A stretch of 64,000 bases of DNA. Origin: Terriglobia bacterium (lineage in GTDB: Bacteria > Acidobacteriota > Terriglobia > Terriglobales > Acidobacteriaceae). The stretch covers positions 1 to 64,000 of the forward strand of contig JAVUPY010000086.1 of NCBI GenBank assembly GCA_032252755.1, in the 5' to 3' direction. The translations under genes were made by a program, and so were the position numbers. Below, piece after piece: positions 1 through 21,026 of this stretch. Position 1 is the stretch's first letter. The number at the start of each line of letters is the position of its first letter. The notes below the pieces were generated by a model that made no database searches, was not told where the DNA came from, and saw only the letters and a list, made by a program, of their open reading frames with translations.

Positions 1-1134
1 AAATAGAAATCCCGGGGTTTTGTTGTCCCTTTCACCTCAGCCAGCGGCTCGCGTATGACCCTTGTCAGACCTGCGTTCCGGGTGTTTTGCTTGCGCAAAT
101 CGCTCGGCGCGATCTATCGACTCGGGCTCCGGGCTTACCACCAACCGGGCAAACTGAACCACGCCCCGGGATCCCAATTTTGCCTTCGACGTCTCTTGTT
201 CTCCTCGACCAGCAGCTCGCTTATAGACCCTCGCTGCCCCTCCTCGCCTCACGTCTGTGGTGTCGCCGTCAGATGCTCGAGCATTTCGCCTTGCGGCTTG
301 TGCTGAGCGCCGGGCTTAGAGACTGCCGTCTCCTGCCCAATGGCGGTTGCCGTCGCTACCGTCAGTTTCGCGGGAACTTCATTTTCGTGTCCGATACAAC
401 CGTCGCTGCATCGTTCACAAAAACCGTCATTCCCGTGACCTGTTGAACTTTCGTCCCTCAGGTTGTGCCAGGCGCCGTCGCCCCTGGCTTGTGTCGGCCT
501 AAGTCATCGCGTGCCCGCGCTAACCTATTTTGTGGCCGACCACTGGCGGCTTCCACCTCGGTGTGGGCTGGGTGAGCTCGCTTGAGCCCCGGACTCACCA
601 ACCAACCGGGAAAACTTCAGAAACTGTCAAAGAACGAGTGTGTTTCTACGCTTCTATAAAAATTTGTCAATGATTTCGTGCGAAAGAATAAGTGCCGTGT
701 TTTCAATCGAGTGCAGCTCGTCCACAAGGGGGTGCTTCAAGAATGGTGCAGAGGTCTGTGACGGGGGATCACACGGAAAGCCGCATGGATAGGCTTTTTG
801 CGGGTTCGAGGGTGATTTGAAGCCGCATGAATGTTGATCGAAGCGAATATTGAAATGTGTAAATTTGGGGAGAAACCGTGCTGGGAGCGGGAATCGAGGA
901 GGTGCAAGGTTCAAGGTACAAGGTGCAAGGTACAAGGCGCAAGAAAACACCGAACCGCTGATCAAGCGGAGTCACTTTTACAGTTCCAGCGCGAGGAAGC
1001 CGGGCAAAGGCACTCCGCTATTCCACGGTAAGTTTAGAAAGCTTTATCGTAGTTGCATTCGCCCGATGATACAGGTGACTCCGCGAAGTCCATGGCGTCG
1101 TTCTTGCACCTTGTACCTTGTGCCTTGCACCTCA
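1..1134. other. Left-edge region without a supportable gene
   Basis: Open frames here are short, overlap on both strands and match no family I know. The frame on the minus strand at 654-965 reads through a heptamer repeat, which gives a low-complexity Leu-Tyr-Leu-Ala-Pro-Cys peptide, so I do not call it. Visible contents are an imperfect direct repeat (about 118-160 and 571-620, sharing CCAACCGGG followed by an A-rich stretch) and the inverted heptamer arrays listed separately at 899-1133. Nothing else is recognised. Confidence 0.6.
899..1133. repeat. Inverted pair of heptamer arrays (unit AGGTNCA)
   Basis: The left arm (899-943) holds six tandem copies of the 7-bp unit AGGTNCA. The right arm (1103-1133) is its reverse complement. 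Over 31 bp (899-929 against 1103-1133) the arms agree at 29 positions. They enclose 173 bp with no gene. The right arm ends two bases from the stop codon of the methyltransferase gene at 1135. The unit returns at 12734-12865, next to the mobA stop codon. Confidence 0.85.
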
Positions 1135-1779
1135 TCAGATTTTCATCGCCACCGCCACTCCATCCCGCAGCGGCAACAGGGTCGTGAAGAACTCCTTCGA
1201 CTCGTATAACGCCTGATTGAATTCCTTGATTGCCTTAGTCGTTTCCATGTCGGCTTCTTTCGAACCTTCCGCGGCGATCACGCGGCCGTGCCAGAGGGTG
1301 TTGTCGGCGACGAAGAGGCCGCCTTTGCGGACGCGCCGGGAGGCCAGACGCAGGGCACGCGGGTAGTCATCCTTGTCGATGTCGCAGAAGATGATGTCGA
1401 ACTGGCCTTTCTCTTCGGAAAGGAGTTCGAGGGCGTCGCCAGTGCGGATGTCGATGCGATCGGCGACGCCGGCGCGCTGGAAGTATCCGCGAGCCTCGTC
1501 GGCGTTCTTGCGGTCGCCATCGGTGTAGATGACGCGTCCGCCTTCGCCGACCGCGCGCGCCCACCAGATGGTCGAATAACCGACGGCGGATCCCATCTCG
1601 AAAACGGACTCGGCCTGGGTCATCTGCACGAGCTGGTAGAAAAGGCGGCCCACGGCAGGACCGACGATCGGGATATTGCGCTGGCGCGCCTGCTCCTCGA
1701 TCTCGGTGAGGACTTCGTCGCGCGCGGGAAGCAGGCTGTGGATGTACTCGTCGATGCCGTCGATAAAGATTTCGCCCAA
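1135..1779 (-). CDS. SAM-dependent O-methyltransferase (caffeoyl-CoA OMT-like)
   Basis: A 214-residue class I methyltransferase of the Methyltransf_3 (catechol/caffeoyl-CoA O-methyltransferase-like) family. The SAM-binding motif I is VFEMGSAVGYSTIWWA (about residues 58-73), followed by an acidic strand end (IYTDGD). FDIIFCDIDKDDY (about 126-138) fits the metal-binding and catalytic Asp region of this family. The length matches bacterial members. The start is TTG at 1779, chosen because AAGGAG lies six bases upstream and the frame opens with the family's usual N-terminus. The substrate cannot be read from sequence; small catechols or hydroxylated aromatics are typical. It is the downstream neighbour of the hydrolase gene at 1932, with repeat elements between them. 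Confidence 0.88.
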   Translation of the reverse strand: MGEIFIDGIDEYIHSLLPARDEVLTEIEEQARQRNIPIVGPAVGRLFYQLVQMTQAESVFEMGSAVGYSTIWWARAVGEGGRVIYTDGDRKNADEARGYFQRAGVADRIDIRTGDALELLSEEKGQFDIIFCDIDKDDYPRALRLASRRVRKGGLFVADNTLWHGRVIAAEGSKEADMETTKAIKEFNQALYESKEFFTTLLPLRDGVAVAMKI

Positions 1780-1805
1780 GGGAAGCTCCTTGTTAAGAGA
1801 GAAAA

Positions 1806-1844
1806 GCAGATTCCTCGCCGACTAAAGTCGCCTCGGAATGACAA
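1806..1844. repeat. Family D mosaic repeat fragment
   Basis: The segment carries GCAGATTCCTCGCCGACT followed by CTCGGAATGACAA. Both blocks recur in related form at 11844-11900 and, reversed, at 53678-53752. It lies between the hydrolase stop and the methyltransferase start. Confidence 0.55.
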
Positions 1845-1874
1845 AAACAAATCAGAAAACGAACAACTCGCAAT

Positions 1875-1911
1875 GGCACGGCTAAAGCCGTACCCCTTCA
1901 AATCATTTCAC
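1875..1911. repeat. Family C palindrome with 11-bp direct repeat
   Basis: A near-perfect palindrome (1875-1894, arms GGCACGGCT and AGCCGTACC) with an attached CCTTCA. A second copy is at 51725-51744. Directly after it, AATCATTTCAC occurs at 1901-1911 and again at 1930-1940, where it spans the stop codon of the hydrolase gene. Confidence 0.75.
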
Positions 1912-1931
1912 AACAGCCGAGCCCTTATGAA

Positions 1932-2669
1932 TCATTTCACGATCGCCGGTTCGAGTATCTTCAGTTCCCTGCTGTCGCCGGGTTTCATCTCCCAGACTTC
2001 GATGCCGAGGTCGCGCGAGACTTTTTCCAACTGCTTGGGGCGGCCGGTTAGTGGCGGGAAGGTGCCAAAGTGCATGGGGATGACGACCTTCGGGTGCAGC
2101 AGGTGGCATGCGTAGGCGGCTTCGACGGGGCCCATGGTGAAGAGGTCGCCGATGGGTAGCATGGCGTAATCGGGCGCATAGAGTTCGCGGATGATGGCCA
2201 TGTCGCCAAACACATTGGTGTCGCCGGCGTGGTAGAGCGTGGGGCCGTGGGGAAACTTGATCACGTAGCCGGCGGGCTCGCCGCCATAAATGATCGAGCC
2301 ATCGTCGTCCTGTATGCCGCAGGAGTGATCGGCGTGAACCATGGTTATTTTGATTCCCTCAAACTCCTGGCTGCCACCCTTGTTCATTGGGCTGATGTTC
2401 TGGGCGCCGTGCTTGCCGAGCCACTGGCAAAGCTCGAAGATGCCGATGACCTTCGGTTGATGTTCGCGAATGAGCGGGACGGCGTCGCCAATATGGTCGA
2501 AATGCCCATGGGTGCAGATCATCAGATCGAGCTTCTTGAACTTCTTTTGGGAGTCCGGGCAAGCGGGATTTCCGCTGACCCATGGGTCGATCAGGATGAT
2601 TCGTCCGGCGTATTCAATCTTGAAAGTGGAATGTCCCAGCCAGGTGATTGTCGGGCGTGTTGTCGTCAT
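1932..2669 (-). CDS. Metal-dependent hydrolase, UPF0173 (metallo-beta-lactamase fold)
   Basis: A 245-residue cytoplasmic protein of the UPF0173 / YtkL-like branch of the metallo-beta-lactamase superfamily. It opens with ITWLGHSTFKI. The metal motif HGHFDHIGD has the HxHxDH pattern. Later metal ligands appear in HADHS, HAGDTN and the C-terminal MHFGTFP. The physiological substrate of this family is not established. The start is ATG at 2669 because GAGGA lies just upstream; a longer frame reaching 2720 lacks such support. The stop codon lies inside an 11-bp duplication and is followed by two repeat elements before the methyltransferase gene. Confidence 0.88.
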   Translation of the reverse strand: MTTTRPTITWLGHSTFKIEYAGRIILIDPWVSGNPACPDSQKKFKKLDLMICTHGHFDHIGDAVPLIREHQPKVIGIFELCQWLGKHGAQNISPMNKGGSQEFEGIKITMVHADHSCGIQDDDGSIIYGGEPAGYVIKFPHGPTLYHAGDTNVFGDMAIIRELYAPDYAMLPIGDLFTMGPVEAAYACHLLHPKVVIPMHFGTFPPLTGRPKQLEKVSRDLGIEVWEMKPGDSRELKILEPAIVK

Positions 2670-2760
2670 AAGGTCCTCACGAATGCTAGATGCGCGAGAC
2701 ATGGAGAATTGTAGTTTCACTGACTTGGCTCCGCAATCGGCGGTGGAAAAGCGCTGCGAC

Positions 2761-2776
2761 GGCGGATGATAAAATC
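2761..2776 (+). promoter_or_regulatory. Putative promoter core shared with the Crp/Fnr gene
   Basis: The 16-mer GGCGGATGATAAAATC occurs here and again at 42527-42542, each time upstream of a plus-strand regulator gene. TAAAAT would serve as the -10 hexamer. I see no convincing -35 element at 17 bp spacing. It lies about 130 bp before the phosphatase gene. Confidence 0.4.
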
Positions 2777-2903
2777 AGGGTTGGACCTCACTCATTAGCT
2801 GTTCTTTTTAGGGTGACCCGAGCCGAGGCGGCCGGGGCTACTGAGGCAAAATCGTTTCCCGGGCGAGGTGGCCGGGGACTACCAGGACAGGCATCATTTG
2901 GGG

Positions 2904-4679
2904 ATGAGTACGACGGCACAATCTACATCACCGGCACGTACGGATTCGCTGCTACTGGAGGTGGCCGACGTCGTCAACGCGACGCTCGACCTCGACACCC
3001 TTCTGCGCCGCGTGTCGGAACTTATCCGCCGCGTTATGAATTACGAGATCTTCGCCATCCTGCTGCTGAATGAGAAAACGCAGGAGATGAAGATTCGGTT
3101 CCAGGTGGGCCATCCGCCGGAGCTGGCGGAACGGATGCGCGTGAAGGTTGGCGAGGGAGTGACCGGGCTGGCGGCGGCGAAGCGTGAAGCGGTACTGGTG
3201 AACGATGTTCGCGAGATGCCGAACTTCATTGAAGGCGCCAAAGGCGTGCGCTCCGAGCTGGCGATCCCGCTGATCATAAAGAACCGTGTTATCGGCGTCA
3301 TCGATATCGAAGCATCAGTCCCGAACTACTTCACGGAAGAACACCGCGACCTCCTGGCGCTGGTCGGATCACGAATTGCCATCGGGATCGAGAACGCGCG
3401 GCTTTACACGCGGGTTTCGAAGCAGGCCAAAACGCTGATCCTGCTGAACGAGATCAGCCGTGAAGTTACGTCGATACTCGATCTCGATCAATTGCTGAAG
3501 CGCATCGGCGAACTGCTCACCCGTCTCATCGATTACCAGATGTTCAGCATCCTGCTCGTCGACGACAGCGGAAAGAAACTGCAGCACCGCTTCTCATTGC
3601 GCTTCAACGAAAGCATCCACCTGAAGCACGATATTGCACTCGGAAACGGACTCGTAGGCGCAGCGGCCAGACTCGGACAGCCGGTGCTGGTTCCGGACGT
3701 GAGCAGGGATCCACGGTATATCGCCGTGAACCCGGAGACGCGCTCAGAGCTGTGCGTTCCGCTCATCTATAAAGAGAAGGTCATCGGCGTTCTCGACCTC
3801 GAACACACGCGGCGAGCGTACTTCACGGAAGACCACATGCGTACGATGGTGACGCTGGCGGCGCAGATTGCCATCGCCATTGAAAATGCCCGGCTTTATG
3901 AGCAGATCAAGCGTCAGGAGAAGCGGCTCGAACAGGACCTGTTGCTGGCGCGCGAGTTGCAATATCGGCTGCTGCCGCATACGACGCCCACGTTAGGCAC
4001 TGCGGAAGTAGCGGCAAAATTCACTCCTGCTCGTACCATCGGCGGCGATATGTACGATTTTCTGAGCTACGCCGGGAACCAGACCGCCATCGCGATCGGC
4101 GACGTCAGCGGGAAGGGCGCTCCGGCGGCGATCTACGCTGCGCTGGTCAGCGGGATTCTGCGGTCGCACGCTGCGGAAGAACCGGGCGCCGCGCAGATGC
4201 TCGAGGCGATCAATCTCTCTCTCGCGGAGCGTCCGATCGAAGCGCAGTATGTTTCGATCATTTACGCCGTGTGGGACGATACGGAACGCGTGCTGCAAAT
4301 CGCCAACAGCGGACTTCCCCGCCCGATCTATTGCCACCAGGGAAAGGTCGAGCGTATCGAAGCCACAGGTTTGCCGCTGGGTTTGTTCCCGAGCGCGGAG
4401 TACGATGAGTTCACATTCCGCTCGGCGCCGGGCGACGTTTTCGTGTTCTTCAGCGACGGCATTCTCGACGCGCGCAATGCTCACGGAAATACGTTCGGGC
4501 GCGAACGCGCGGAAGAAATCGTCGCGCGTAATTGCTACAAGTCGGCCGACGAAATCGTCTCGCTGATCTTTCACGCGGTGACTGACTTCGTGGGCGATAC
4601 GGAACAGTTCGACGATCAAAGCGTGGTGGCTCTCAAAGTACGAAATCCTAATGCGAAGCCATCGCCGAAAAGAAAGTGA
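2904..4679 (+). CDS. GAF-GAF serine phosphatase (RsbU/SpoIIE type)
   Basis: A 591-residue soluble regulator. Two GAF domains (about residues 20-170 and 185-345) precede a short coiled-coil linker (IKRQEKRLEQDLLLAREL) and a PP2C/SpoIIE-type phosphatase domain (about 370-590). Metal-binding acidic motifs are visible as IGGDMYDF, IGDVSGKG, FFSDGILDAR and FDDQSVV. Family members dephosphorylate anti-anti-sigma factors in partner-switching circuits, with GAF domains sensing small ligands; no partner gene is nearby. The start is uncertain. ATG 2904 is preferred over GTG 2868, but neither has a strong ribosome binding site. The stop overlaps the start of lysA by 4 bp (GTGA), so the two are translationally coupled, an unusual pairing. 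Confidence 0.87.
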   Translation: MSTTAQSTSPARTDSLLLEVADVVNATLDLDTLLRRVSELIRRVMNYEIFAILLLNEKTQEMKIRFQVGHPPELAERMRVKVGEGVTGLAAAKREAVLVNDVREMPNFIEGAKGVRSELAIPLIIKNRVIGVIDIEASVPNYFTEEHRDLLALVGSRIAIGIENARLYTRVSKQAKTLILLNEISREVTSILDLDQLLKRIGELLTRLIDYQMFSILLVDDSGKKLQHRFSLRFNESIHLKHDIALGNGLVGAAARLGQPVLVPDVSRDPRYIAVNPETRSELCVPLIYKEKVIGVLDLEHTRRAYFTEDHMRTMVTLAAQIAIAIENARLYEQIKRQEKRLEQDLLLARELQYRLLPHTTPTLGTAEVAAKFTPARTIGGDMYDFLSYAGNQTAIAIGDVSGKGAPAAIYAALVSGILRSHAAEEPGAAQMLEAINLSLAERPIEAQYVSIIYAVWDDTERVLQIANSGLPRPIYCHQGKVERIEATGLPLGLFPSAEYDEFTFRSAPGDVFVFFSDGILDARNAHGNTFGRERAEEIVARNCYKSADEIVSLIFHAVTDFVGDTEQFDDQSVVALKVRNPNAKPSPKRK

Positions 4680-5959
4680 CCCGACCACCTAAAATCACCG
4701 CTCGACCGCCAGCTTTCCTGTACCGCAACCGTGACCTCCATTGCGAATCCGTACCGATGTCGCGCCTCGCTGCGCAACACGGGACTCCCCTCTACGTATA
4801 TTCCGCGACGACGATTCGCGAACGATTCGAGACATTCGACGCCGCCTTCGGTAGGTATCCGCACACTGTCTGCTATTCGGTGAAGGCTAATTCGAACCTG
4901 ACAATCTTGAAGATGCTGGCGAAGATGGGCGCTGGGTTCGACGTCGTTTCCGGCGGAGAACTGGAGCGCGTCCTGCGGGCGGACAAGACAGCAGCGAAGC
5001 GAGTAGTCTTCTCCGGCGTCGGGAAGACCGCAGCAGAAATGGACATGGCGCTGCGGGCGGGAATACTGCTCTTTAACCTCGAGAGCGAAGCAGAGTTGCA
5101 CGTATTGGCTGAGCGGGCGGCGCGTTTGCAGAAGACTGCGCGGATTGCATTTCGCGTGAATCCCCATGTCCATGCTACGACGCACCCGTACATCACTACC
5201 GGGCTGCGGGAACACAAGTTCGGCGTCAACATCGACGACGCTCCGCGGTTCTATGCTGAAGCCGCGCAGATGGACTGGTTGGAGCCCGTCGGGGTCAGCG
5301 TGCACATTGGATCGCAGATCACGGATGTCGAACCCTTCCGCGAAACCATGGAACGCATTACCAGGCTTGCACACCAGTTAATGCGTTTCGGGCTGAATAT
5401 TTCGCTGGTGGATGCCGGCGGCGGACTTGGAATCAACTATGAGGGCGGAACTTCAGGCGATTTTGCCAAGGCCGCTCGCGCTTATGCGAAGGCACTTCTC
5501 AGTTCGCTGCGCAAAGAACAGTTCCATCTCCTGCTCGAACCCGGACGGTCGATCGCCGCGCCTGCCGGGGCGCTGCTTACGCGCGTTCTGTACGTAAAAG
5601 AGAACTCGGGCAAGCAGTTCCTCATTGTTGACGCCGGTATGAACGACCTGATCCGGCCATCGCTCTACAACGCGTATCACGAAATTGTTCCCGTCGAGTT
5701 CGAGCGCGGCGAATCGATTACGGCTGACGTGGTTGGACCAGTATGTGAGACCGGCGATTTCTTTGCGCGCGGCCGCACACTGCCGCCCCTCAAGGCCGGC
5801 GACCTCGTCGCCATCCTCGACACCGGCGCCTACGGAATGTCGATCACATCCAACTACAACTCGCGCCCAAGGCCCGCGGAAGTGCTGGTGGAAGGATCAA
5901 AGTCGCGGGTGATTCTACGGCGGGAGACATTCGAGGACCTGATAAGGACGGAGTCGTAG
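4676..5959 (+). CDS. lysA: Diaminopimelate decarboxylase
   Basis: A 427-residue PLP enzyme of the alanine-racemase-fold decarboxylase family. It converts meso-diaminopimelate to L-lysine, the last step of lysine synthesis. The PLP lysine is in CYSVKANSN. HIGSQI supplies the barrel histidine. The glycine-rich phosphate loop is DAGGGLGINY. EPGRSI and the C-terminal GPVCETGD, with the catalytic Cys, complete the set. The length is typical. The start GTG 4676 overlaps the preceding phosphatase stop by 4 bp. No dapF or asd gene lies alongside. Confidence 0.95.
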   Translation: MTRPPKITARPPAFLYRNRDLHCESVPMSRLAAQHGTPLYVYSATTIRERFETFDAAFGRYPHTVCYSVKANSNLTILKMLAKMGAGFDVVSGGELERVLRADKTAAKRVVFSGVGKTAAEMDMALRAGILLFNLESEAELHVLAERAARLQKTARIAFRVNPHVHATTHPYITTGLREHKFGVNIDDAPRFYAEAAQMDWLEPVGVSVHIGSQITDVEPFRETMERITRLAHQLMRFGLNISLVDAGGGLGINYEGGTSGDFAKAARAYAKALLSSLRKEQFHLLLEPGRSIAAPAGALLTRVLYVKENSGKQFLIVDAGMNDLIRPSLYNAYHEIVPVEFERGESITADVVGPVCETGDFFARGRTLPPLKAGDLVAILDTGAYGMSITSNYNSRPRPAEVLVEGSKSRVILRRETFEDLIRTES

Positions 5960-6374
5960 AACTCGGAGATGATCCGAGGGAATCCACGAACCGGCGTCTA
6001 TATCCCCCGATAAGAAATTATCGGCCTACCGCTGGTGAGAGAGTCTCTGGCATTTCCGTATCTGGTGGACAATTACGTTTACGAAGGCACTGATTTCGCT
6101 GTGGTGCAATTGCACCCGTTTGAATTCCTGGGCATTCTGCCGGGAGCGGGTCCAACATCCTTTGCGTCGTGTGCCATTGAAAACCGAAACGGACGCGTAG
6201 TGGCTCTCATTTTTCAGCAAGATCACTGGATTCCGGCCGAATTGAAGGGTTCGCACAGTCCTAACTTCAAATCACTTTTCTGAATCAAGATTTTGTGCAC
6301 CCTTTTGGTCATTACCCTAAGCAATTCCCTGTATAGCTTTGTGACTGCGAATCGACCTATGCTTTGGCTGTCCA
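5960..6374. other. Intergenic stretch with a hairpin and a doubtful ORF
   Basis: A perfect 7-bp hairpin with a GAAA loop (CCGATAA/TTATCGG, 6007-6024) follows lysA. It lacks a T-run, so termination is uncertain. An 82-codon plus frame from GTG 6035 to 6283 has no family match and an equally long opposing frame, so I do not call it a gene. Confidence 0.5.
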
Positions 6375-6584
6375 ATGCAGTCGTCGCGCTACGAGTCCGG
6401 TGGAAACGTTTCGATTTGCGTCTGGTGCGAGAGCAAGTTCTCGTCGGCGAATAGCCGGGCGCGCGAAAACAATATCTTCTGCTCGAAAAAATGCGAGATC
6501 GAAGCCAGGTTCTGGCTCCTCGATCGGCTGAAAGAACAGCCTGCACCGGATGCTCCTGACGCAGGGGACAGCGCGGGAATTTAG
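6375..6584 (+). CDS. Small zinc-ribbon-like protein
   Basis: A 69-residue hypothetical protein. CVWCESKF followed about 17 residues later by CSKKCE gives two Cys pairs (CxxC and CxxxC) that could bind one zinc ion, as in small zinc-ribbon proteins. The sequence between is charged and polar, and the C-terminus is acidic and Pro/Ala-rich. No function can be assigned. The start ATG 6375 is the first in frame, and its Shine-Dalgarno sequence is not evident. It stands alone between lysA and a long non-coding region. Confidence 0.55.
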   Translation: MQSSRYESGGNVSICVWCESKFSSANSRARENNIFCSKKCEIEARFWLLDRLKEQPAPDAPDAGDSAGI

Positions 6585-7298
6585 CAACCCGAGTCACCAC
6601 AGAGACACACAGAGGGACAGGTCTCGAAACCTTATCGTTCAGGTCTGTAGCTACTCTGAGAGCGGAAAATCGCCCACCCGGTGGGAAAGAGGACCCAGAG
6701 GTCAAGAATCAGCCTCGCTCAAGTCTGCTTCGAGTGGACGCTGAATCCCGTCGGCAAAAAAAAAGGACCGAGTGGTTTTCACTCAGCCCCGTTAAGCTTT
6801 ATGGCTCTTATTTACGTTTCCGCTGCACCAGTTGAAGCTTTGGCTCTTCGGAAAATGTGTTTATGTTTACAGCGCGCTCAGCCTCGGAAGGCTGAAAACA
6901 CATGCAGTCCGGTCCACATGCATGCTCGCTCGGCGGGGGGAGTTCAACTTCAAAGACGACCCAGCGAATCACGAATGACTACCTCCGGCAAAACAACTCA
7001 AATACTACTTGGGGATGCTGTTGTATTTGGAAGCACGTCGGGGGCCATTTAGCAGTGCATGACATAACAACCACATACAGGAGAACATCTACTCTCAATT
7101 GTGCAGTTTTGGACCAAACAGCGGAAGTTTTTCGCAGAGTGAACACCTCAGAAACTCCACTAAATTCCCATTACGGGAAATTAAAGCAAGAACATTGAGG
7201 CGCTCCTCGCCCATCGCGTTTTCACGATTGGCCTGATCGGAAATCCAACGCAGATCTCTCCCTGCGGCCACCGCTCCGTTTGCGATGAAAAGCCTGGG
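6585..7298. other. About 700 bp without a supportable gene
   Basis: Plus frames at 6681-7052 and 6902-7198 overlap each other, have poor composition and resemble nothing known. Visible features are a run of nine A (near 6757), a 5-bp hairpin just after it (GAGTG/CACTC), and a 6-bp hairpin CAGCCT/AGGCTG at 6879-6894 without a T-run. GC is lower than in flanking genes. I cannot identify an RNA gene. Confidence 0.5.
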
Positions 7299-7985
7299 TC
7301 AATTACTGAAGCGCGGATCGTAAGTCGACGGGCCCTGCCCGTACCAGAGAACAAGAAGATCGGAGCGTCGCTGGACTTTGAACTTGCTTAAAAGATTGGA
7401 GACATGAAATTTTACGGTTCGCTCCGAGATGTTCAGTTCGTTCGCAATCTCTTTGTTGGTCAGGTTTTTGAGAAGCGCGCTGGCAATCTGCCGTTCACGC
7501 TGGCTCATGCGCACTTCCGGCAGATGTGCCGTGTCGTGTGTGCGAGAGGCTCCAACGAGGCTGTCGACGAATTTCGAAAGCATCCTGCGCCAAACCCACA
7601 GGCCACCGGACGAAATGGTCTCCAGCGCGCGCGGCAACTGCTGATCCATGCTTTCGTGTGTCACCAGGCCTTTTACTCCGAGGTTCAACAGTTCAAATGC
7701 CACCGACTCCTCAAACTGCTCTCCCAGGACCAGCACGTTGGCATCGGGTTCCTGCTGGAGTAGTTGGGCGACTCGTGTCGCTGGGCCTTCCGGACAACTG
7801 GAGGCGTCGAGGATGTAGATGGTGGCTTTGGGTAGCTGTACACTCTCCGAGTTCACGACGGAGAGCCGCTGTTCGTCGACATAGAGGGGCGCAGCGTTCA
7901 GGATGCGCTGCAACTGCGTGAGCACCATCGGATGAGCGGCGATGACACACACAGAAACCCGTCTTCTTCTCGGCGACTGGATCAT
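7299..7985 (-). CDS. LuxR/NarL-type regulator with atypical receiver
   Basis: A 228-residue protein with an N-terminal receiver-like domain (about 10-130) and a C-terminal LuxR-type helix-turn-helix (about 155-215: SQRERQIASALLKNLTNKE, then NELNISERTVKFHVSNLL). The phospho-acceptor Asp is retained (D60 in YILDASS). The acidic pocket normally found after the first strand is absent (VIAAHPM, with Ala16-Ala17), so normal Mg-dependent phosphorylation is doubtful. No kinase is adjacent. The start ATG 7985 has AGGG nearby. A similar but differently altered regulator lies at 62876. Confidence 0.82.
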   Translation of the reverse strand: MIQSPRRRRVSVCVIAAHPMVLTQLQRILNAAPLYVDEQRLSVVNSESVQLPKATIYILDASSCPEGPATRVAQLLQQEPDANVLVLGEQFEESVAFELLNLGVKGLVTHESMDQQLPRALETISSGGLWVWRRMLSKFVDSLVGASRTHDTAHLPEVRMSQRERQIASALLKNLTNKEIANELNISERTVKFHVSNLLSKFKVQRRSDLLVLWYGQGPSTYDPRFSN

Positions 7986-8052
7986 TACCCTACTAGATTA
8001 CCGGACCGGCTACGCTTCCACACCGTCCAAAAGTGTTAAGCAATTCCCTTTT

Positions 8053-8074
8053 GGAACAGATTTTTCACTGTTCC
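8053..8074 (-). other. Hairpin with the amidohydrolase stop codon in its loop
   Basis: GGAACAG (8053-8059) and CTGTTCC (8068-8074) form a 7-bp stem whose loop holds the TGA of the gene ending at 8065. No T-run follows, so termination is uncertain. Confidence 0.45.
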
Positions 8075-9747
8075 TTCATGGGATAAACCACCTTGCCCCC
8101 CACCATGGTCATTTGCACGGTTACGTCTTTGATGGCGTCGGGCTTAATAGCAAAGATATCATCACTCAGCATCACCATATCCGCAAGTTTTCCCGGCGTG
8201 ATGGAGCCTTTTTCCTTGTCTTGGAATTCCGCGTAAGCCGAACCCATGGTATACGCCTCGACGGCCTCGCTCACTTTCAACTTCTGCTCGGGATACCATC
8301 CGTCCGGATTCTTGCCGTCGAGCGTTTCGCGCGTTACGGCGGCGTAGATGGTCAGCAGCGGGTTGAGCGGCGCAACCGGCCAATCGGTGCCGAAGGCGAG
8401 CCGGACTTTGTTGTCCAGGAAAGTGCGGAAGGCATACGTTGCCTTCGCGCGCTCCGCGCCAATTCTCTTCTCCGCCCAGCGGCCGTCATCAATCGCATGG
8501 TACGGCTGCACTGAAGCGATCACATCCAACTGGCGAAAGCGATCGAAATCCTTGGGGGCCATATGCTGCGCGTGCTCGATGCGGAAGCGCCGATCCTTCG
8601 GGCCGTTCTTGTTGACAACGTCCTGGTAAAGATCGAGCACGTCGGAGATCGCCTCATCGCCGATGGCGTGAATGCACGACTGCAAACCGGCGGCATCGAG
8701 CCCGATCAAACGGTCGCGCATCTTGGACAGCGGGATCATATCCTCCGCTAGCAGACCGCGATTCTTCGGATCATCTGCATAGGGCTTGAAGAAGTACGCG
8801 GTGCTCGAGCCGAGCGAGCCGTCCGCAAAACCTTTGAGTGCGCCCATCCGGAGATACGACGTTCCGAAGGCGTGCCGTATGCCGATCTTCGCCTGGTCCT
8901 GCCAGTTCGCAATCAGCGGCGCGACGTATATCCGCGTGGTCAACTCGTTCTTCTCGGCGAGTTCCGAGAAGACCGAGACATCCTCGTACGGCACAGCCAT
9001 GTCCTGCACGCTGGTGAGGCCGAGGCGCGACGCGTGCGCCATGGCGCGACGAATGATCCTGGTGAGTTCGGCGCGAGTCGGCGGCGGAATCTTCGAGTAC
9101 ACCAGGTCCATCGCCGCATCTTTCAGGACGCCGGTGGGCTCGCCGTTCGCATCCCTTACGATCTCGCCACCCGGAGGCGCTTTCGTCGTTTTCGTAATAT
9201 CCGCGATCTTTAGCGCCACGCTGTTAGCCAGCGCCATGTGCCCGTCATAGCGACTGACGAAGACGGGCGTGTTCGGCGTGACCGAATCGATGAGTTGCCT
9301 GGTCGGCAGCTTCGCCGGAGTCCACTTCTGGTCGTCCCAGTTGCCGCCGGTCATCCACTCCTTCGGGAAATGCTGGGCGCGCTCTGCGATTCTCTTCTTG
9401 AACTCTTGTTGCGACGTCGCATCGCGCAGATCGACGCTATCTAGTTGGTGACCGCCGTCGGAGAAATGAACGTGTGCGTCGTTGAAGCCTGGCAGCACGA
9501 GTTTGCCGCCCCCGTCGATGATTTTCGTGGCGGAGCCTCGCCAGCGATCAATCTCGGCGGCGGAGCCGACGGCGACAATGCGGTCGCCGATGATCGCCAC
9601 GGCTTCGGCTCTCGGACGCTCCGGATCGACCGTCCAGATTTTTGCGTTGGTCAGGATGACGTCGGCGGCAGGCCGCTGTTGGGCCACGAGGCGGAAACCG
9701 AACGTGAGAAGAATTATGAGAGCGATGCGTTGAAGATTGCGAATCAT
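8065..9747 (-). CDS. Secreted amidohydrolase (YtcJ-like, Amidohydro_3)
   Basis: A 560-residue metal-dependent amidohydrolase. Residues 1-23 form a signal peptide (hydrophobic LIILLTFGF, then VAQQ), so it acts in the periplasm or outside. The metal-binding motif FNDAHVHFSDGG opens the catalytic barrel. Further ligand regions are CIHAIGDEA, RIEHAQH and AFGTDWPV. The C-terminal composite domain ends in MVGGKVVYP. The family hydrolyses amide bonds in varied N-acyl or cyclic compounds; the substrate is unknown here. Start ATG 9747 has GAGGAG seven bases upstream. It follows nadK, separated by a family A palindrome. Confidence 0.9.
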   Translation of the reverse strand: MIRNLQRIALIILLTFGFRLVAQQRPAADVILTNAKIWTVDPERPRAEAVAIIGDRIVAVGSAAEIDRWRGSATKIIDGGGKLVLPGFNDAHVHFSDGGHQLDSVDLRDATSQQEFKKRIAERAQHFPKEWMTGGNWDDQKWTPAKLPTRQLIDSVTPNTPVFVSRYDGHMALANSVALKIADITKTTKAPPGGEIVRDANGEPTGVLKDAAMDLVYSKIPPPTRAELTRIIRRAMAHASRLGLTSVQDMAVPYEDVSVFSELAEKNELTTRIYVAPLIANWQDQAKIGIRHAFGTSYLRMGALKGFADGSLGSSTAYFFKPYADDPKNRGLLAEDMIPLSKMRDRLIGLDAAGLQSCIHAIGDEAISDVLDLYQDVVNKNGPKDRRFRIEHAQHMAPKDFDRFRQLDVIASVQPYHAIDDGRWAEKRIGAERAKATYAFRTFLDNKVRLAFGTDWPVAPLNPLLTIYAAVTRETLDGKNPDGWYPEQKLKVSEAVEAYTMGSAYAEFQDKEKGSITPGKLADMVMLSDDIFAIKPDAIKDVTVQMTMVGGKVVYPMKEQ

Positions 9748-9783
9748 GGGGCTCCTCGCAGTTGCGAAATGAGGTCGTTATCC

Positions 9784-9817
9784 GTGGCCCCATCTGCCGT
9801 AATCAGCAGACGTGGGT
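9784..9817 (-). repeat. Family A palindrome directly after nadK
   Basis: An imperfect stem-loop of the CCCACGTCTGC type begins three bases after the nadK stop codon. Related elements follow the stop codons at 38237 (two tandem copies) and 47875, all in the same orientation relative to the gene. Confidence 0.75.
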
Positions 9818-9820
9818 GTT

Positions 9821-10675
9821 TTACCGCTGCCCCCACTTCAACTTGTTACGTAGTACATCAAAGAAAGTGCGTCTCATACGGAAAAGCGAGACGGAGTGCG
9901 TCGATTTACGGCAATGAACATGATCGCCGCTGAGGACGGGAATGCCGACCTGGCCGTCGATGGTGAGAAAGGCCTGCTCGCCGTCGGTATTGATGACGAG
10001 TTGAACGTCCACGGTGTCTCGCACGACCAGCGGCCGATGCGTGAGCGCATGCGGACACACCGGGGTAATCACGAAAGCATCCACGCTCGGCATGAGCACA
10101 GGCCCGCCCGCTGCAAGCGAATACGCGGTGGAACCCGTTGGCGTCGAGGTGATCACTCCATCCGCCTTGTACTGAACGACAAAAGCGTCGTCGATGAACA
10201 GATCGAAAGCCACGAGCCGCGCGATTGCGCTCTTGTTCACCACAACGTCGTTCAGCGCGTAATACGTTTCCAGGCAGTTTCCGTCGCGCACCAGACGACA
10301 TTCAAGTACCGAGCGCGATTCGACCGGGCAGCGGCAGGCGTCAATCTGCGCCAGCGTTTCATAAAGTTCGCTGAGCGGAACTTCGGTCAGGAATCCGAGC
10401 GAGCCGAGATTGACGCCGAGGATGGGTATGCCCTGCGGAGAAACGGCGCGCGCGGCGGAAAGCAGCGTCCCGTCACCACCGAGCACCAACGCGAAATCGG
10501 GTCTCAACTCGCCGATTTTGTCGCGAGGGACGACGCGATCGTGCGCGGCGTAGGTGGCGGTCTCCAGGTCAATGGTTACCTGGTAGTCGTGGTCGGCGAA
10601 CCATCGCAGAACTTCGGGGACAATCTGGTGCAACTCCTGCTTCGACGGCTTGGAAATGATAGCGGCAGTTTTCAT
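9821..10675 (-). CDS. nadK: NAD kinase
   Basis: A 284-residue ATP-NAD kinase that makes NADP. The signature GGDGTLLSAAR, the glycine-rich GVNLGSLGFLTE, and TPTGSTAYSLAAGGP, where the nucleotide binds, are all intact. The length is typical. Its ATG overlaps the tlyA stop by 4 bp (ATGA), a tlyA-nadK coupling I have seen in many bacteria. The gene is followed by a family A palindrome. Confidence 0.95.
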   Translation of the reverse strand: MKTAAIISKPSKQELHQIVPEVLRWFADHDYQVTIDLETATYAAHDRVVPRDKIGELRPDFALVLGGDGTLLSAARAVSPQGIPILGVNLGSLGFLTEVPLSELYETLAQIDACRCPVESRSVLECRLVRDGNCLETYYALNDVVVNKSAIARLVAFDLFIDDAFVVQYKADGVITSTPTGSTAYSLAAGGPVLMPSVDAFVITPVCPHALTHRPLVVRDTVDVQLVINTDGEQAFLTIDGQVGIPVLSGDHVHCRKSTHSVSLFRMRRTFFDVLRNKLKWGQR

Positions 10676-11481
10676 TCTTCGCTCGAGACCCCAAATACCG
10701 CGTGCAGAAGAAACTCCCTGTTCCCTTCCGTGCCGAGAATCGGCGAATCGATGACTTCAATTTCGGCGCCGCCCAACTGCTCGACGGCGGCACGAACTTT
10801 TGCGACGGCGTCCTGCTGCGCAACTTCGTCGCGAACAATACCGCCCTTGCCGACCCGCTCGCGCCCAACCTCGAACTGCGGCTTCACGAGCACGACCAGG
10901 TCTCGACGGTGGAGCGGCTTGACACTGGGTACCCCATCCTTTGCGCCCACTGTTGGCGCAAAGGGTGGGTCGGCTCCTGCCGCGCGCAGAACCGCCGGAA
11001 GGACGAGTGTAGCAGAGATAAAAGACACGTCCATGGCAATGATGTCGGCGTCTTCGGGGAGAGACTCTGGCTCCAGATAGCGGGCGTTGGTTCGCTCCAG
11101 CAGTCGAAGACGTGGATCATTGCGCAACCGCGCGTCGATCTGGCCGTAGCCGGTGTCAATGGCAATGACTCGCGCTGCACCGTGCTGTAACAAACAATCC
11201 GTGAAACCCCCGGTCGAGGTACCGATATCGAGTGCAGTCTTCCCTTCGCAGTCGATTCGCCAGTGCTCGAGTGCGCGCTCTAGTTTCAACCCGCCGCGAC
11301 TGACGTACGGCATGTCGTCGCCGAGCAATCGGATCGCCGCTGACTCCTCCACCTGCGCTCCAGCCTTCGTGACCTTCTGCTCGTTGATGAGCACGCGCCC
11401 GGCAAGAATCATGGCCTGCGCACGCTCACGCGAGGAGGCGAGGCCGCGGTCGGTCAGGAGTTTGTCGAGGCGGAGTTTCAT
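10672..11481 (-). CDS. tlyA: TlyA-family rRNA methyltransferase with repeat-derived insertion
   Basis: A 269-residue protein with an N-terminal S4 RNA-binding domain (about 1-60, LDKLLTDRGLASSRERA) and an FtsJ/RrmJ-like methyltransferase domain (SRGGLKLERALE, SAM motif LDIGTSTGGFTDCLL, VDVSFIS-like MDVSFISA, then VVLVKPQFE). TlyA proteins 2'-O-methylate rRNA. Residues about 171-186 (DPPFAPTVGAKDGVPS) are encoded by a family B palindrome. They sit where relatives have a short loop before the VVLVKPQFE strand, so the insertion probably is a tolerated surface loop. Coupled to nadK. Confidence 0.9.
   Translation of the reverse strand: MKLRLDKLLTDRGLASSRERAQAMILAGRVLINEQKVTKAGAQVEESAAIRLLGDDMPYVSRGGLKLERALEHWRIDCEGKTALDIGTSTGGFTDCLLQHGAARVIAIDTGYGQIDARLRNDPRLRLLERTNARYLEPESLPEDADIIAMDVSFISATLVLPAVLRAAGADPPFAPTVGAKDGVPSVKPLHRRDLVVLVKPQFEVGRERVGKGGIVRDEVAQQDAVAKVRAAVEQLGGAEIEVIDSPILGTEGNREFLLHAVFGVSSEE
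10927..10970. repeat. Family B palindrome inside tlyA
   Basis: A 44-bp element that can form a 15-bp stem with a 7-nt loop (9 inner pairs perfect). It matches 34 of 44 positions of the element at 51767-51810. Two stem pairs differ between the copies with both partners changed, keeping pairing. It is read in frame as part of TlyA. Confidence 0.85.
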
Positions 11482-11703
11482 CGCAGTTATTGTAGAGGAG
11501 AGGGCGGGCGAGGCGATCGGATCGGAATGGGTAGTCGAGGATAGATTATGGTAGGGCCCGTTCTCATCAATCCATCTTGTCTGCAGCGATGGATGTTAGA
11601 TGAAGTTGGTATCGTTTAGTTCTTCACCATGGCGCAGAATCATAGCATTGCGCTCTGTCTGTGGTTGATAAGGATGAATCGGAGTCAGGAAGAAGAATCG
11701 GTA

Positions 11704-11780
11704 TGGCGGGCCCGGAGCGATTCGAACGCCCGACCCCTTCGTTCGTAGCGAAGTGCTCTATCCAGCTGAGCTACGGGCCC
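11704..11780 (-). tRNA. tRNA-Arg (anticodon ACG)
   Basis: The minus strand gives a full cloverleaf of 77 nt. The acceptor stem is GGGCCCG/CGGGCCC. The D-arm contains AGCTCAGCTGGATAGAGC. The anticodon stem CTTCG/CGAAG closes loop CTACGAA, with anticodon ACG. The T-loop is TTCGAATC. Discriminator G is followed by an encoded CCA. The ACG anticodon (inosine at the wobble position) reads CGU, CGC and CGA. Confidence 0.97.
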
Positions 11781-11843
11781 GTGCTTCGAGTATAACAACG
11801 ACCTTTCGGAGCGGCAAGAGAGGGGTGTCCTGTCGAGGAAGAA

Positions 11844-11900
11844 ATGCAGGTCCCTCGACTCCGCCGTGCAAAAAGCGCGCGGCTGCACTCCGAATGACGA
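11844..11900. repeat. Family D mosaic repeat
   Basis: Begins with ATGCAGGTCCCTCGACT, identical over 17 bp to the reverse complement near 53731-53752, and ends with CTCCGAATGACGA, close to a block at 1832-1844. It lies between the ABC ATPase gene and tRNA-Arg. Confidence 0.65.
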
Positions 11901-11915
11901 TTCGTTATTTGTGGC

Positions 11916-11931
11916 AGAGCGTTTACGCTCT
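11916..11931 (-). other. Hairpin with the ABC ATPase stop codon in its loop
   Basis: AGAGCG and CGCTCT form a perfect 6-bp stem around a 4-nt loop that contains the TAA stop of the gene ending at 11923. No T-run follows. Confidence 0.5.
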
Positions 11932-12714
11932 CGGTCGCTCTTCCGGTGGTGGGATGTTTTCGATCATCTCGAAGGAATCGAGGTGCATGAATTCGCGGAC
12001 GATGTCGACCTCGGAATTCTTCATCTCAGCGGGCGGGCCGTCGAAGACCTTTTTGCCTTCGTGGAGGAAGATGACGCGGTCGGCGACCTTCTGGGCGAGC
12101 GCCATGTCGTGGGTCACGACAATCGAGGTCAGCTTCAACTGATACTTTAGCTTTTTAATGAGATCGCCCAGCAGTTGCGCCATTAGCGGGTCGACCATGG
12201 TTGTCGGCTCGTCGTACAGGATGCACTCGGGTTGCGCAGCCAGCGCGCGCGCAATCGCCACCGAACGTTTCATTCCGGTCGAAAGATCCGAGGGAAGCTG
12301 GTCGCGATACTGCTTGACGCCGACCATCTCCAGCAGGCCATCGACGATCTGGTAGATCTGCTCTTCGGTCAGGTCTCCGCGCTCGCGCAGTGGGAATGCG
12401 ACGTTCTCGCCGCAGGTGATCGAGTCGAAGAGTGCACCGTTCTGAAAGACCATCGTAACTTTCTTGCGGATGCGTTCGAGTTCGCGCTCGGGGTAGTCGG
12501 TGATGTCCTCGTGGGCGACCCAGACGCGGCCGGAATCCGGCTTGAGGAATCCCATGATGTGGTGGAGCGACACGGACTTGCCCACGCCCGAGCGCCCCAG
12601 GATAGCGACGGTCTCGCCCGGGTAGACGACGAAGCTGACGTCATCGAGCACGACCTTGTCGCCGAATGCCTTGCAGACGTGCTGGAAGTCGATATAGGGC
12701 TGGCGGTCAGTCAT
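11923..12714 (-). CDS. ABC transporter ATP-binding protein (MlaF-like)
   Basis: A 263-residue ATPase subunit. Walker A is GRSGVGKS, the Q-loop is MVFQNGALFDS, the signature is LSTGMKRSVAIARAL, Walker B is ILYDEPTTMVDP and the switch His is in VVTHD. The GALFDS Q-loop and STGMKR signature resemble the MlaF/Ttg2A group, which powers phospholipid transport between outer and inner membranes. No MlaE permease or MlaD gene is adjacent, so the partner must be elsewhere. The start ATG 12714 (MTDRQPYIDF) is preferred over an upstream frame that runs through a repeat array. No good ribosome binding site is visible, since the repeat occupies that position. Confidence 0.85.
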   Translation of the reverse strand: MTDRQPYIDFQHVCKAFGDKVVLDDVSFVVYPGETVAILGRSGVGKSVSLHHIMGFLKPDSGRVWVAHEDITDYPERELERIRKKVTMVFQNGALFDSITCGENVAFPLRERGDLTEEQIYQIVDGLLEMVGVKQYRDQLPSDLSTGMKRSVAIARALAAQPECILYDEPTTMVDPLMAQLLGDLIKKLKYQLKLTSIVVTHDMALAQKVADRVIFLHEGKKVFDGPPAEMKNSEVDIVREFMHLDSFEMIENIPPPEERPRA

Positions 12715-12733
12715 AAGGGGTGCCGGGTACCGG

Positions 12734-12865
12734 GGTTCAAGGTACAAGGTTCAAGGGGCAAGATGCAAGGAAGGTGCGAGGTACGGGGTAGGAGGTGCGA
12801 GGTACCAGGAAAGCTGAGCCGATTTTGCTCGCATCTCGAAGTTCGTAGATGGCACCTCGTACCTC
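12734..12865. repeat. Heptamer arrays (AGGTNCA type), partly inverted
   Basis: Five units of GGTTCAA type (12734-12768) are followed by degenerate GAGGTGC/GAGGTAC units (12775-12806). An inverted arm (12851-12865) matches 13 of 15 bases of 12792-12806. The right arm begins two bases after the mobA stop codon. It fills the gap between mobA and the ABC ATPase gene. Confidence 0.8.
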
Positions 12866-12867
12866 AT

Positions 12868-13506
12868 TCACTTCTCTGCCGCGAGTTTTTCGAACTCCTC
12901 CGGCGTATTCACGTTCGCGAACATCTCCGGGGAGAAGCCCGCTGCTCGCACCTCTTCTTCCGTTAGGATGCGCAGGGAGGCGCGATCGAAGCTGGCGTCG
13001 ACTTTATTGTGGCCGTCCTTGAGGGCCCTTTCGGCGCGCTCGCGGAAGCCCCGGCGATAGACGCCGCAGAGGGGCTGCAGGCCACCGACGACGGATGCCA
13101 CGGTGACTTGCGAACCCGCCTCTCGCGCCATCTTCAGAATCCAACCGAGTAGCGCCGCAGTGACTCCGGGGAGATCGACGGCGAGAATGATGTTCCACTC
13201 CGTGGTTGTCGTCGAGAGCGCAGCGTGAATGCCGCCGAGAGGGCCTCGGTCGCGAAAGACGTCTTCCACGATCTCACCCGCCCAGGCATATCCAGCATAT
13301 TTCTCGCGCGAACCCACAATTCCGACCTGTCCGGCCACGGCTCCGGCGACCGCGAGAGCGTTCTCCAGCAGCGTTCGACCGGAGGGCAGACTCAGCGACG
13401 CTTTATCCTGCCCCATGCGCTCGCTCCTGCCGCCGGTAAGAATGAAGGCGGTGACATCGCTCTGAGCTTTGTGCCCAACATTTGCGGTTTCTATGTCGGC
13501 AGACAT
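12868..13506 (-). CDS. mobA: Molybdenum cofactor guanylyltransferase (MobA-like)
   Basis: A 212-residue nucleotidyltransferase that joins GMP to molybdopterin to make the guanine dinucleotide cofactor. The N-terminal signature ILTGGRSERMGQDKASL fits the GTP-binding motif of the family (usually LAGGxSxRMGxDK). RDRGPLGGIHAAL and AVDLPGV (the metal-binding Asp region) also fit. The C-terminal FANVNTPEEFEKL is typical. ATG 13506 is preferred, with GGAG six bases upstream; a TTG four codons earlier would overlap that site. A distant MobB-like gene lies at 59029. Confidence 0.9.
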   Translation of the reverse strand: MSADIETANVGHKAQSDVTAFILTGGRSERMGQDKASLSLPSGRTLLENALAVAGAVAGQVGIVGSREKYAGYAWAGEIVEDVFRDRGPLGGIHAALSTTTTEWNIILAVDLPGVTAALLGWILKMAREAGSQVTVASVVGGLQPLCGVYRRGFRERAERALKDGHNKVDASFDRASLRILTEEEVRAAGFSPEMFANVNTPEEFEKLAAEK

Positions 13507-13587
13507 TTCGATCTCCAAGCGTACGACCAGTCCATCGTGAAAGGTATAAAGGTCATCACTGCCGGCAAGACGCCCGTGCCCGGAATC

Positions 13588-13971
13588 TCAGTTGATCTGG
13601 TTCGCCGTGCCCGGCTGCCACTGGATTTCCATGCCGACGATGCGGCCGGCGCGATCAAGGTCCAGTTTGGCGGGAGCCTTGAGCACGGCATCGCCGCTGA
13701 AGCCTGGCACGGCGATCAGGACCTTCGGCTCGATGTAGTCGGCCATGGCGTCACTCCGGATGAACTGCATGGCCAGATCGTTCCGGCAAGGCTTCGGAAT
13801 CTCGAACGAAAGGTCGGCGAGTTCGCCAGTTTCGGAGACCGAGATCGCCGCCTCTACCGGCATGCGAGTCTTGATTTCCTCGGCCGAGACCTGCAGGTGC
13901 GGCTTGAACGAGACGTAGTAGAGGAAGCCGTCCTCGGGATCGAATTCAGAACGTTCAACTTTGAATGGCAT
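13588..13971 (-). CDS. Hypothetical protein with duplicated strand motif
   Basis: A 127-residue soluble protein that I do not recognise with certainty. It contains two similar segments, AISVSETGELADLSFEIP and LDLDRAGRIVGMEIQW, which recall the beta-hairpin of DUF2283-type proteins; that link is only suggestive. There is no signal peptide or membrane segment. It lies directly upstream of mobA on the same strand (81 bp gap), but nothing ties it to cofactor synthesis. Confidence 0.6.
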   Translation of the reverse strand: MPFKVERSEFDPEDGFLYYVSFKPHLQVSAEEIKTRMPVEAAISVSETGELADLSFEIPKPCRNDLAMQFIRSDAMADYIEPKVLIAVPGFSGDAVLKAPAKLDLDRAGRIVGMEIQWQPGTANQIN

Positions 13972-14340
13972 ATCAAGAAAAGAAGCCTAGTTCTACTAAC
14001 TATTAACTATAAGAGCGGTTGTTTGTATCACAAAAGAGAGCACCGGGAAAGTAAATGAAAGGGAACGGAGAAGAGCGTAGATTGTGAATCGTGAATAGTC
14101 GATCGAATGGACTTTGGAGAACTAAGGTCGACCCACCAGTCACGATTCTCAATTGCCCCTGTGAGCCTGTTTTTGCACAACAAATTGGCCCTTCCAGGGT
14201 TCTAGAACCTTGGAGACTACTCGCAATTAGAAGTGCGGTTGGGCTATTCTGGCGCGGAGAATTTCCGAATCCAGGTGGTCCGGGTGCAGCAACTCTGCAT
14301 CTAACGCAACAAGCGTACCGCGACAGAGGAGAGTTCCAGT
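13972..14340. other. Divergent intergenic region with inverted repeat
   Basis: An inverted repeat of 14 bp (14081-14094 with 14140-14153, 13 matches; ATTGTGAATCGTGA-type) is visible. A degenerate ACTATTA-type short repeat lies at about 13993-14011. The region must carry promoters for both flanking genes, but no hexamers stand out. Confidence 0.5.
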
Positions 14341-20500: not shown

Positions 20501-21026
20501 CTTATCGAACAATTCGATTCTCGGTCGGCCGCCTGAGGTTTCGATCGCTGAAGATACAGACGGTCTCCTGATCAAGGTTGCGCTCCGCCGACGTTTTGCT
20601 GCGGTCGTAAGTGCTATAGCTACGACTGGCTGCGCCCTGATCGTGGCCGACGCATTTGTGCCTCACCGCCTGATGCTCATCATCGTTGCACTTGCCGCAC
20701 TGCTCGGAGTTGTGATGTCCATGCGGGAGCAGACTGTAGAACTTCGGGTAAACAATCTTGATTTCGAGACGCTTGGCTATTTTGGCGGGAGTTATCGCCG
20801 TCGCAGAACTGAACCTCGAATGAGCATCCGGGGCATGGAACATCGCACCAGCGAGAACGTACCGGGGCTGTACGCTGACATGCCCTTTTACTGGGCCTGC
20901 CTTCTTCCCTTCGTCAGTGAACAACAGGCCAACGAAATCATCGAGCGTATCTATCGGAAGTTTCCCGATACCCCGGTCGCGGCGGACCCCTTCACCGAGA
21001 ATTTAACGACCCTGGAATTGGACTGA
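20481..21026 (+). CDS. Hypothetical protein with two membrane helices
   Basis: A 181-residue protein. Two adjacent hydrophobic helices (about 38-58 and 64-80, VSAIATTGCALIVADAF and LMLIIVALAALLGVVMS) form a hairpin, with cytoplasmic flanks like small PH-like membrane proteins. The C-terminal part carries LLPFVSEQQANEIIERIYRKFP. No family is recognised. It overlaps the 3' end of the NtrC-type gene by 20 bp. ATG 20481 or 20487 could be used. Confidence 0.65.
   Translation: MRMGWISLSNNSILGRPPEVSIAEDTDGLLIKVALRRRFAAVVSAIATTGCALIVADAFVPHRLMLIIVALAALLGVVMSMREQTVELRVNNLDFETLGYFGGSYRRRRTEPRMSIRGMEHRTSENVPGLYADMPFYWACLLPFVSEQQANEIIERIYRKFPDTPVAADPFTENLTTLELD

Follow-up and report, generated by a model that had tools for sequence, protein, structure and literature searches.

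Convergent heptamer arrays at gene borders in an acidobacterial family: anatomy, word turnover and possible roles

Two array-bearing loci and their kin in the genome

The window analysed here is the whole 64,000-nucleotide stretch at positions 1 to 64,000 of contig JAVUPY010000086.1 from a Terriglobia bacterium of the Acidobacteriaceae (assembly GCA_032252755.1). At two loci it carries tandem 7-bp units faced by an inverted arm, both as given in a preliminary description of this DNA. At locus 1 the 5' arm (900..943, plus strand) consists of six AGGTNCA units, i.e. CAAGGYN in the register used below, followed by AG. An interior of 159 nt (944..1102), which itself holds an inner inverted repeat (966-980 / 1070-1084), separates it from a 3' arm of four units on the minus strand (1103..1132), the first of which lies two bases past the stop codon of an O-methyltransferase gene (PF01596; 1135..1779, minus strand). 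An inverted-repeat search paired 896-929 with 1103-1136 (34 nt, 91% complementary, 173 nt between), and the 31-bp pairing described earlier corresponds to the inner 31 nt with two mismatches around the 173-nt loop. Locus 2 lies between an ATP-binding cassette (ABC) transporter ATPase gene (PF00005; 11923..12714, minus strand) and a gene for a MobA-like nucleoside triphosphate transferase (PF12804; 12868..13506, minus strand). Its 5' arm, on the plus strand, is composite, with an outer part of CAAGG-type (AGGTNCA-type) units (12734..12770) at 19 bp from the start codon of the ATPase gene and an inner part of CGAGG-type (AGGTNCG-type) units (12771..12809). The 3' arm (12851..12865, minus strand) adjoins the mobA stop and has two CGAGG-type units, seen by eye and below the array threshold; no inverted pair was listed at this locus by the inverted-repeat search. 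The reported distance of two bases between stop and arm holds at both loci, the methyltransferase stop (TCA on the plus strand) lying at 1135-1137 before AGGTGCA and the mobA stop at 12868-12870 before GAGGTAC. The window as a whole contains 14 matches to the heptamer pattern (at most three mismatches) against 1.09 expected, a number that none of 100 shuffles reached, and positions 1-14000 have no Rfam match at the gathering score. Beside locus 1, positions 1-890 form a stretch without a called gene, and a third, unpaired array of the type GCTGANN lies at 21043-21068, shortly past a TGA at 21024-21026.

The genome from which the window derives (5.39 Mb, 99.98% complete; the source genome) was read over about 0.8 Mb, comprising 20 stretches picked regardless of arrays together with the surroundings of the matches listed, of the Y1 genes and of the atp operon, with genes called by an in-house codon-model script instead of a standard gene finder. 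The further copies called for in the preliminary description are present: an exact 17-mer pattern has 28 matches genome-wide and its reversed control none, and at up to two mismatches there are 181 matches against 22 for the control, overlapping matches within one array being counted separately. In the part that was read, 53 arrays of the CAAGG[Y][N] type are clear (score of at least 14); four variable dinucleotides are present in 34 of them, so that four units are typical. The arrays are thus real, far above chance and present at many more than two places, although the exact CAAGG pattern occurs in only 4 of 150 family genomes, the source genome included. When arrays form a close pair, they face inward without exception (23 inward, 0 outward), enclosing loops of 9-35 nt in 17 pairs and of over 150 nt in 3.

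Locus 1 had been likened to a miniature element. A mobile element of the REPIN type (built of repetitive extragenic palindromic, REP, sequences) or of the MITE type (miniature inverted-repeat transposable element), moved by a Y1 transposase (RAYT, REP-associated tyrosine transposase) or another transposase, would have two conserved arms, a variable loop, an intergenic location and many copies, as found here. Y1 domains occur in 18 of 21 genomes, with six in the source genome, and the elements C6:13707 and C74:6395 of this genome (L099:4689-4760 and L121:3976-4039) have 72 nt in common at 76% identity, spanning array and flanks, so that occasional copying is possible; one further flank match between elements covers 47 nt at 79%. 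The likeness is nevertheless not supported: the locus 1 interior occurs once in the genome, and the common internal sequence proposed as a check is absent from 41 array-masked elements. The MITE was rejected on these grounds, the 72-nt pair being the one exception. No target-site duplication was noticed by eye in the 25-nt flanks inspected. Of the 17 Y1 genes inspected, not one has an array detected at a distance of 900 bp or less. Genomes G150 and G156 lack a Y1 match, but clear arrays can be recognised in them by eye; their counts at period 7 (4 and 7) are, however, no higher than at periods 6 and 9. REP/REPIN elements with RAYT, as described in PMC3733652, are likewise dispersed intergenic palindromes, whereas the elements here have no RAYT linkage and an internal period of 7 bp (GTAG/CGTC tags were not searched for). 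We regard a mobile origin of this type as very improbable.

Other words in relatives and position at gene borders

Relatives within the same family carry other words, namely TTAGCYN, TTGGCYN, TCAGTTN and GTTTCNN, which also face inward, and the source genome itself has several words besides CAAGG. A search for sets of four pentamers at a spacing of seven bases (at most two mismatches) covered 510 kb at 35 acidobacterial loci, 13 of the 48 relative loci, 12 of them non-acidobacterial, having been omitted. At period 7 it returned 55 arrays, and 0 in shuffled sequence, against 2, 12, 8, 10, 1, 3 and 15 arrays at periods 5, 6, 8, 9, 10, 11 and 12. The excess is modest in 400 kb of the source genome (17 arrays at period 7, 12 at period 6 and 16 at period 12), and the 12 non-acidobacterial loci (195 kb) gave 3 arrays at period 7 and 9 at period 6. 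An inverted partner within 150 bp accompanies 31 of 86 source-genome arrays and 23 of 96 arrays of relatives, as compared with 0 and 0 when the flanks are shuffled. A second polarity count, for which 11 words were searched and 9 gave pairs, yielded 34 inward and 0 outward pairs; since every word entered the search in the orientation in which it had been observed, this count tests consistency within a word. For TTRGCYN, at least 18 inward and 0 outward pairs were counted by hand among the places listed, and arrays of this word occur in 8 of 22 own-family genomes and 6 of 99 others (121-genome scan), with high counts only in a few own-family genomes. The reversed control CGRTTNY is high in G108, G315, G318 and G054, where it is apparently itself a heptamer word and therefore gives no clean null. 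Two further observations concern relatives. At L154:8082-8609 (G156), heptamers of the AGAGCRC type extend over about 500 bp and were detected as three pieces, a length far beyond the usual four units; and the roughly 40-bp dispersed repeats at L155:5178-5223, 2544-2587 and 4631-4674 (G006), with many matches in four genomes of the genus, apparently constitute a separate repeat family.

With respect to the genes, 56 arms of the source genome were looked at, of which 5 lie inside called genes and 2 have no gene on one side; of the remaining 49, 42 are nearer to the gene on their outer side (median distance 9 nt) than to that on their inner side (75 nt). The link with gene ends seen at the two loci holds, for starts as well as stops, with stops adjoined more often (29:16 in the source genome, 26:20 in relatives). 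The recurring junction between stop and array is also found elsewhere. A stop is no more than 12 nt away from 17 other arms, and in 7 of these the first unit supplies the stop codon (TGA|GG in 4, TAG|GT in 3), which explains the TGAGGT junction noted at the outset. Arrays inside called genes number 10 of 86 in the source genome and 21 of 96 in relatives. Where an array is flanked by genes on both sides in a gap, a border is within 15 bp of it in 45 of 73 cases in the source genome and in 46 of 74 in relatives; random placement predicts fractions of 0.32 and 0.30. Array-bearing gaps are tandem in 37, convergent in 12 and divergent in 9 cases in the source genome (available gaps of at least 60 bp: 292, 75 and 97), and 35, 11 and 11 in relatives (available: 350, 88 and 123), divergent gaps being under-used per base; a 2.5-kb overlap between L093 and L122 was left in these gap and border counts. 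Arrays just past a methyltransferase stop were also encountered in L009, L022, L023 and L028, an observation that has no background rate and is not used as positional conservation.

Arms that often begin at a stop and end shortly before the next start, especially inside the atp operon, and that adjoin stops more than starts, would suit RNA hairpins in 3' or intercistronic leaders, acting as terminators, as stabilisers of the mRNA or in translational coupling between a stop and the start that follows. If the stems acted as RNA, however, G-U should outnumber A-C mismatches in the sense strand, and no such excess is observed (85 G-U versus 112 A-C in 59 tandem-gene elements, 16 versus 15 in 13 others). 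The variable bases pair no more often than chance, elements also occupy divergent gaps (9 of 58 source-genome and 11 of 57 relatives' gaps with arrays), and one pair, at C71:105527-105639, by eye encloses what appears to be an ordinary terminator. A function as RNA hairpin thus seems unlikely, and a role at the level of DNA fits better because the borders are at starts as well as stops, all gap types are used and G-U is not in excess.

Free base, arm independence and word turnover

The general plan of an element is about four units per array, and in the main families each unit has five fixed bases followed by a pyrimidine and a free base. The columns were compared in windows that had been chosen by total period-7 identity alone and were grouped by consensus afterwards. 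Adjacent units disagree in the last column in 70% of comparisons for CAAGG, 76% for CGAGG, 79% for TTAGC, 59% for TTGGC, 61% for TCAGC and 53% for the CAGTT word of the source genome, whereas the five named columns mostly differ in 22% or less (maximum 38%; 5-15% in CAAGG and 3-22% in TTAGC), and the pyrimidine column in 36% (CAAGG) and 34% (TTAGC).

Facing variable dinucleotides (the last two bases, NN) are common to both arms in 11 of 74 cases against 15.5 expected in the source genome, and in 20 of 88 against 20.6 in a second set; in the best register of each source-genome pair 26 of them match, where 28.0 are expected. Arms that carry a common word but, over all pairs, do not share the free base do not look like copies of each other, and inverted copying of one arm was rejected as a general rule given this chance-level agreement. 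These counts also bear on the explanation that the elements are a neutral by-product, namely heptamer microsatellites born by polymerase slippage in gaps between genes, with arms arising through inverted duplication and boundaries set solely by selection against entry into genes. Many bacteria have an excess of heptamer repeats, for which slippage has been put forward (PMC4692102). Here, arrays stop at gene borders, some are homogeneous (a TTAGCTT run in G008; L154 of G156), the GTTTC, CAGTT, GTCGT and AATCT arrays share NN within an array above a global shuffle, and the two arms agree for the most part in window locus 1 and in C90:73839. When invariant columns are tested over all arrays, the outcome is that of a random-substitution model and does not discriminate. 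In the CAAGG arrays of the source genome, however, adjacent units have the same NN in only 17 of 142 cases, where a global shuffle gives 32.9 (P 0.0003) and shuffling inside each array 25.8 (P 0.005), which is the opposite of what fresh slippage leaves, the relatives as a whole being neutral in this respect (50 of 258 against 51.9). Moreover, in the main families the same column is free across loci, facing dinucleotides are unshared over all pairs, and polarity is strict (23:0). We consider a neutral origin possible but somewhat unlikely.

The atp operon allows the same gaps to be compared between genera. A search of 60 family genomes located AtpG in 56, and alpha/gamma and gamma/beta spacers were taken from 50 of these (30 search loci, 20 fetched); the other atp subunit names are presumed from N-termini. 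Out of 100 spacers from 50 genera, 45 were shorter than 45 bp, 5 longer than 330 bp were dropped, 1 was undetermined and 49 were tested (P<=0.02, 50 shuffles). A period-7 array is present in 29 of the 49, an inverted pair in 23 and either in 30, as compared with 1 array and 1 pair at period 6, 2 and 5 at period 8, and 0 and 2 at period 9. In 48 of the own-family atp loci, 45 arrays have period 7 and any other period gives 0-8; the 25 atp loci from acidobacteria of other families have 4 at period 7, three of which belong to one genome, and 4 and 8 at periods 6 and 9. Orthologous spacers are compact in some genera and filled in others, which implies gain and loss, but of different words at one place and not of one moving element. 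Occupancy is scattered over the AtpG tree (15 changes against a shuffled mean of 16, at least 3 forced by well-supported branches). The atp locus L267 (G204, of another acidobacterial family) has, at 1376-1458 and 2423-2515, GAATGAA units as an inverted pair and about 13 GGGTTCA units in a run. In the gamma/beta spacer of L234 (G030), period-8 repeats of the type AGCTGCTN are apparent by eye, so that eight-base versions may exist.

Turnover of the word itself is visible among four congeners (G006, G081, G122 and G142; 69-85% DNA identity over longer aligned pieces), for which four atp spacers were compared and arrays were flagged in 15 of the 16 spacer-species cases, beta/epsilon of G081 being missed. 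The alpha/gamma spacer carries GTCGTTR, TTGGCTN, TCAGTTN and TTAGCYN in the four species, in inverted arrangement in three, and G142 has no opposite arm. Overall, the likeness between orthologous arms is little greater than that between non-orthologous arms (0.67 versus 0.56 over the outer 8 nt, 0.57 versus 0.55 at 40-50 nt). At a junction that we take to be between parA- and parB-like genes, TCAGC is kept in all four congeners while the spacers have changed; the array there reads into the protein tail, so that protein constraint is possible.

Some arms are mixed. By eye, window locus 2 and the delta/alpha spacer of G081 each have one word in the outer units and another in the inner units, and it is the inner word that recurs in the opposite arm. 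Such arms would be expected if the elements were scars of break healing, in which both 3' ends of a break were extended with the same heptamer (about six templated bases and a loose one) and then joined, a re-broken hairpin being re-extended with the current word. This explanation would account for the polarity, for a common word with an independent N, for unshared interiors and for word turnover at one place. At locus 2 the outer word is CAAGG with CGAGG inside and opposite, and in G081 the outer word is TTAGC, as in the orthologues, with a different inner word that equals the opposite arm (by eye). The obvious agent, however, a telomerase-like enzyme, has no RVT_1 match in the source genome or in 14 others of the 21 searched, and telomerase-like healing by a reverse transcriptase was rejected on this result. 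That orthologous arms are so little more alike than others, as given above, also counts against the explanation. We judge it decidedly unlikely.

A possible role as DNA platforms

Arrays with part of this architecture have been described before. In Xanthomonas, Rehm et al. 2015 (PMC4692102) report (GGGANTN)n heptamers of one G-rich word, mostly of four units, with 70 and 75 convergent inverted pairs, 89-93% intergenic, near the open reading frame that neighbours them on the 5' side (mean 28 nt) and mostly in the same gene gaps in two species with varying sequence; no function was found for them. Degenerate four-unit heptamers and convergent inverted pairs are thus found in both systems, but there a single word forms G-quadruplexes, whereas here several words occur, even different ones at one orthologous spacer, and the consensus of the main words has no three adjacent G and hence no GGG tract able to form such a structure. 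For Geobacter metallireducens, PMC2700814 describes paired 'global regulator binding sites' of tandem 7-8-mers on opposite strands at variable distance, and heptanucleotide elements of four repeats in a family of 49 elements; the paired opposite-strand arrangement is as here, while the description concerns few classes in one genome, some beside insertion sequences. The TAACTGA repeats of Beggiatoaceae, cyanobacteria and Bacteroidetes (PMC4679880) are intergenic and near starts, and the reverse complement TCAGTTA overlaps the TCAGTTN word, but they are reported to be directly repeated, the main genome having one inverted case, whereas inverted pairs are common here. Among the open-access literature matches listed, no description of heptamer arrays in Acidobacteriota was found, which is weak evidence of absence. 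The architecture of the acidobacterial arrays is thus known from Xanthomonas, and what differs here is that the word varies by place and species.

The anatomy, the polarity, the border position, the uncorrelated free base, the compact and filled states and the change of word at orthologous spacers are established here, and the marks expected of RNA hairpins, REP/RAYT elements and MITEs are absent. The best explanation of the anatomy is a dispersed class of intergenic elements, each composed of two convergent arrays of contiguous heptamers, one per gap border, around a non-conserved interior. As to their function, we propose, at a probability of roughly one in three, that they are platforms for an oligomerising DNA-binding protein, and that they work like parS of pSM19035. 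This closest biochemical precedent (PMC9499535) consists of contiguous 7-bp repeats, direct or inverted, each bound by one dimer of the ribbon-helix-helix (RHH) protein ParB/Omega, at least four repeats being needed; it is a plasmid centromere with the word WATCACW. The proposal draws on the strict inward polarity, the free base, the lack of correlation between arms at the variable bases, the usual length of four units, the position at borders and the absence of a strand preference in G-U over A-C. Most source-genome arrays have the minimum of four contiguous 7-bp boxes of an RHH heptad operator. The arrays would act as double-stranded DNA, with each heptamer a putative site for one protomer (a dimer) that reads about six of the seven bases; four contiguous sites would hold a stable complex, and two complexes facing inward could serve to mark the intergenic gap or to insulate it, no single element being indispensable.

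Several observations weigh against the platform proposal. Unpaired arrays exist; some arrays, as mentioned, are homogeneous and microsatellite-like; and the CAGTT, GTTTC, ATTTG and GTCGT words of relatives have no single free column. In the long-loop elements, i.e. window locus 1 and C90:73839, 3 of 4 variable dinucleotides match in the best register, so that these arms may be copies of each other. The scattered occupancy of the atp spacers means that no such site looks essential. Finally, both arms can change word within one genus, and this together with several words per genome would require several or changing proteins; the step from anatomy to binding is one that we infer. In a bolder version, which we think unlikely, the elements would form a genome-wide DNA 'punctuation' in several dialects. 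Inward four-heptamer platforms would stand at the borders of genes, those for ATP synthase included; each dialect (six bases read, one ignored) would have its own oligomerising protein, both arms being rewritten together on a change of dialect while position and geometry persist.

Heptamer arrays occur in distant bacteria, in the cited papers without a settled function or origin. Within this one family compact, filled, mixed and rewritten stages are displayed at the same operon spacers, and the hypotheses can thereby be separated: copying and plain slippage are disfavoured by arm independence and by the free base, RNA by the wobble-pair counts. The atp spacers are, as such, ready-made loci for experiment.

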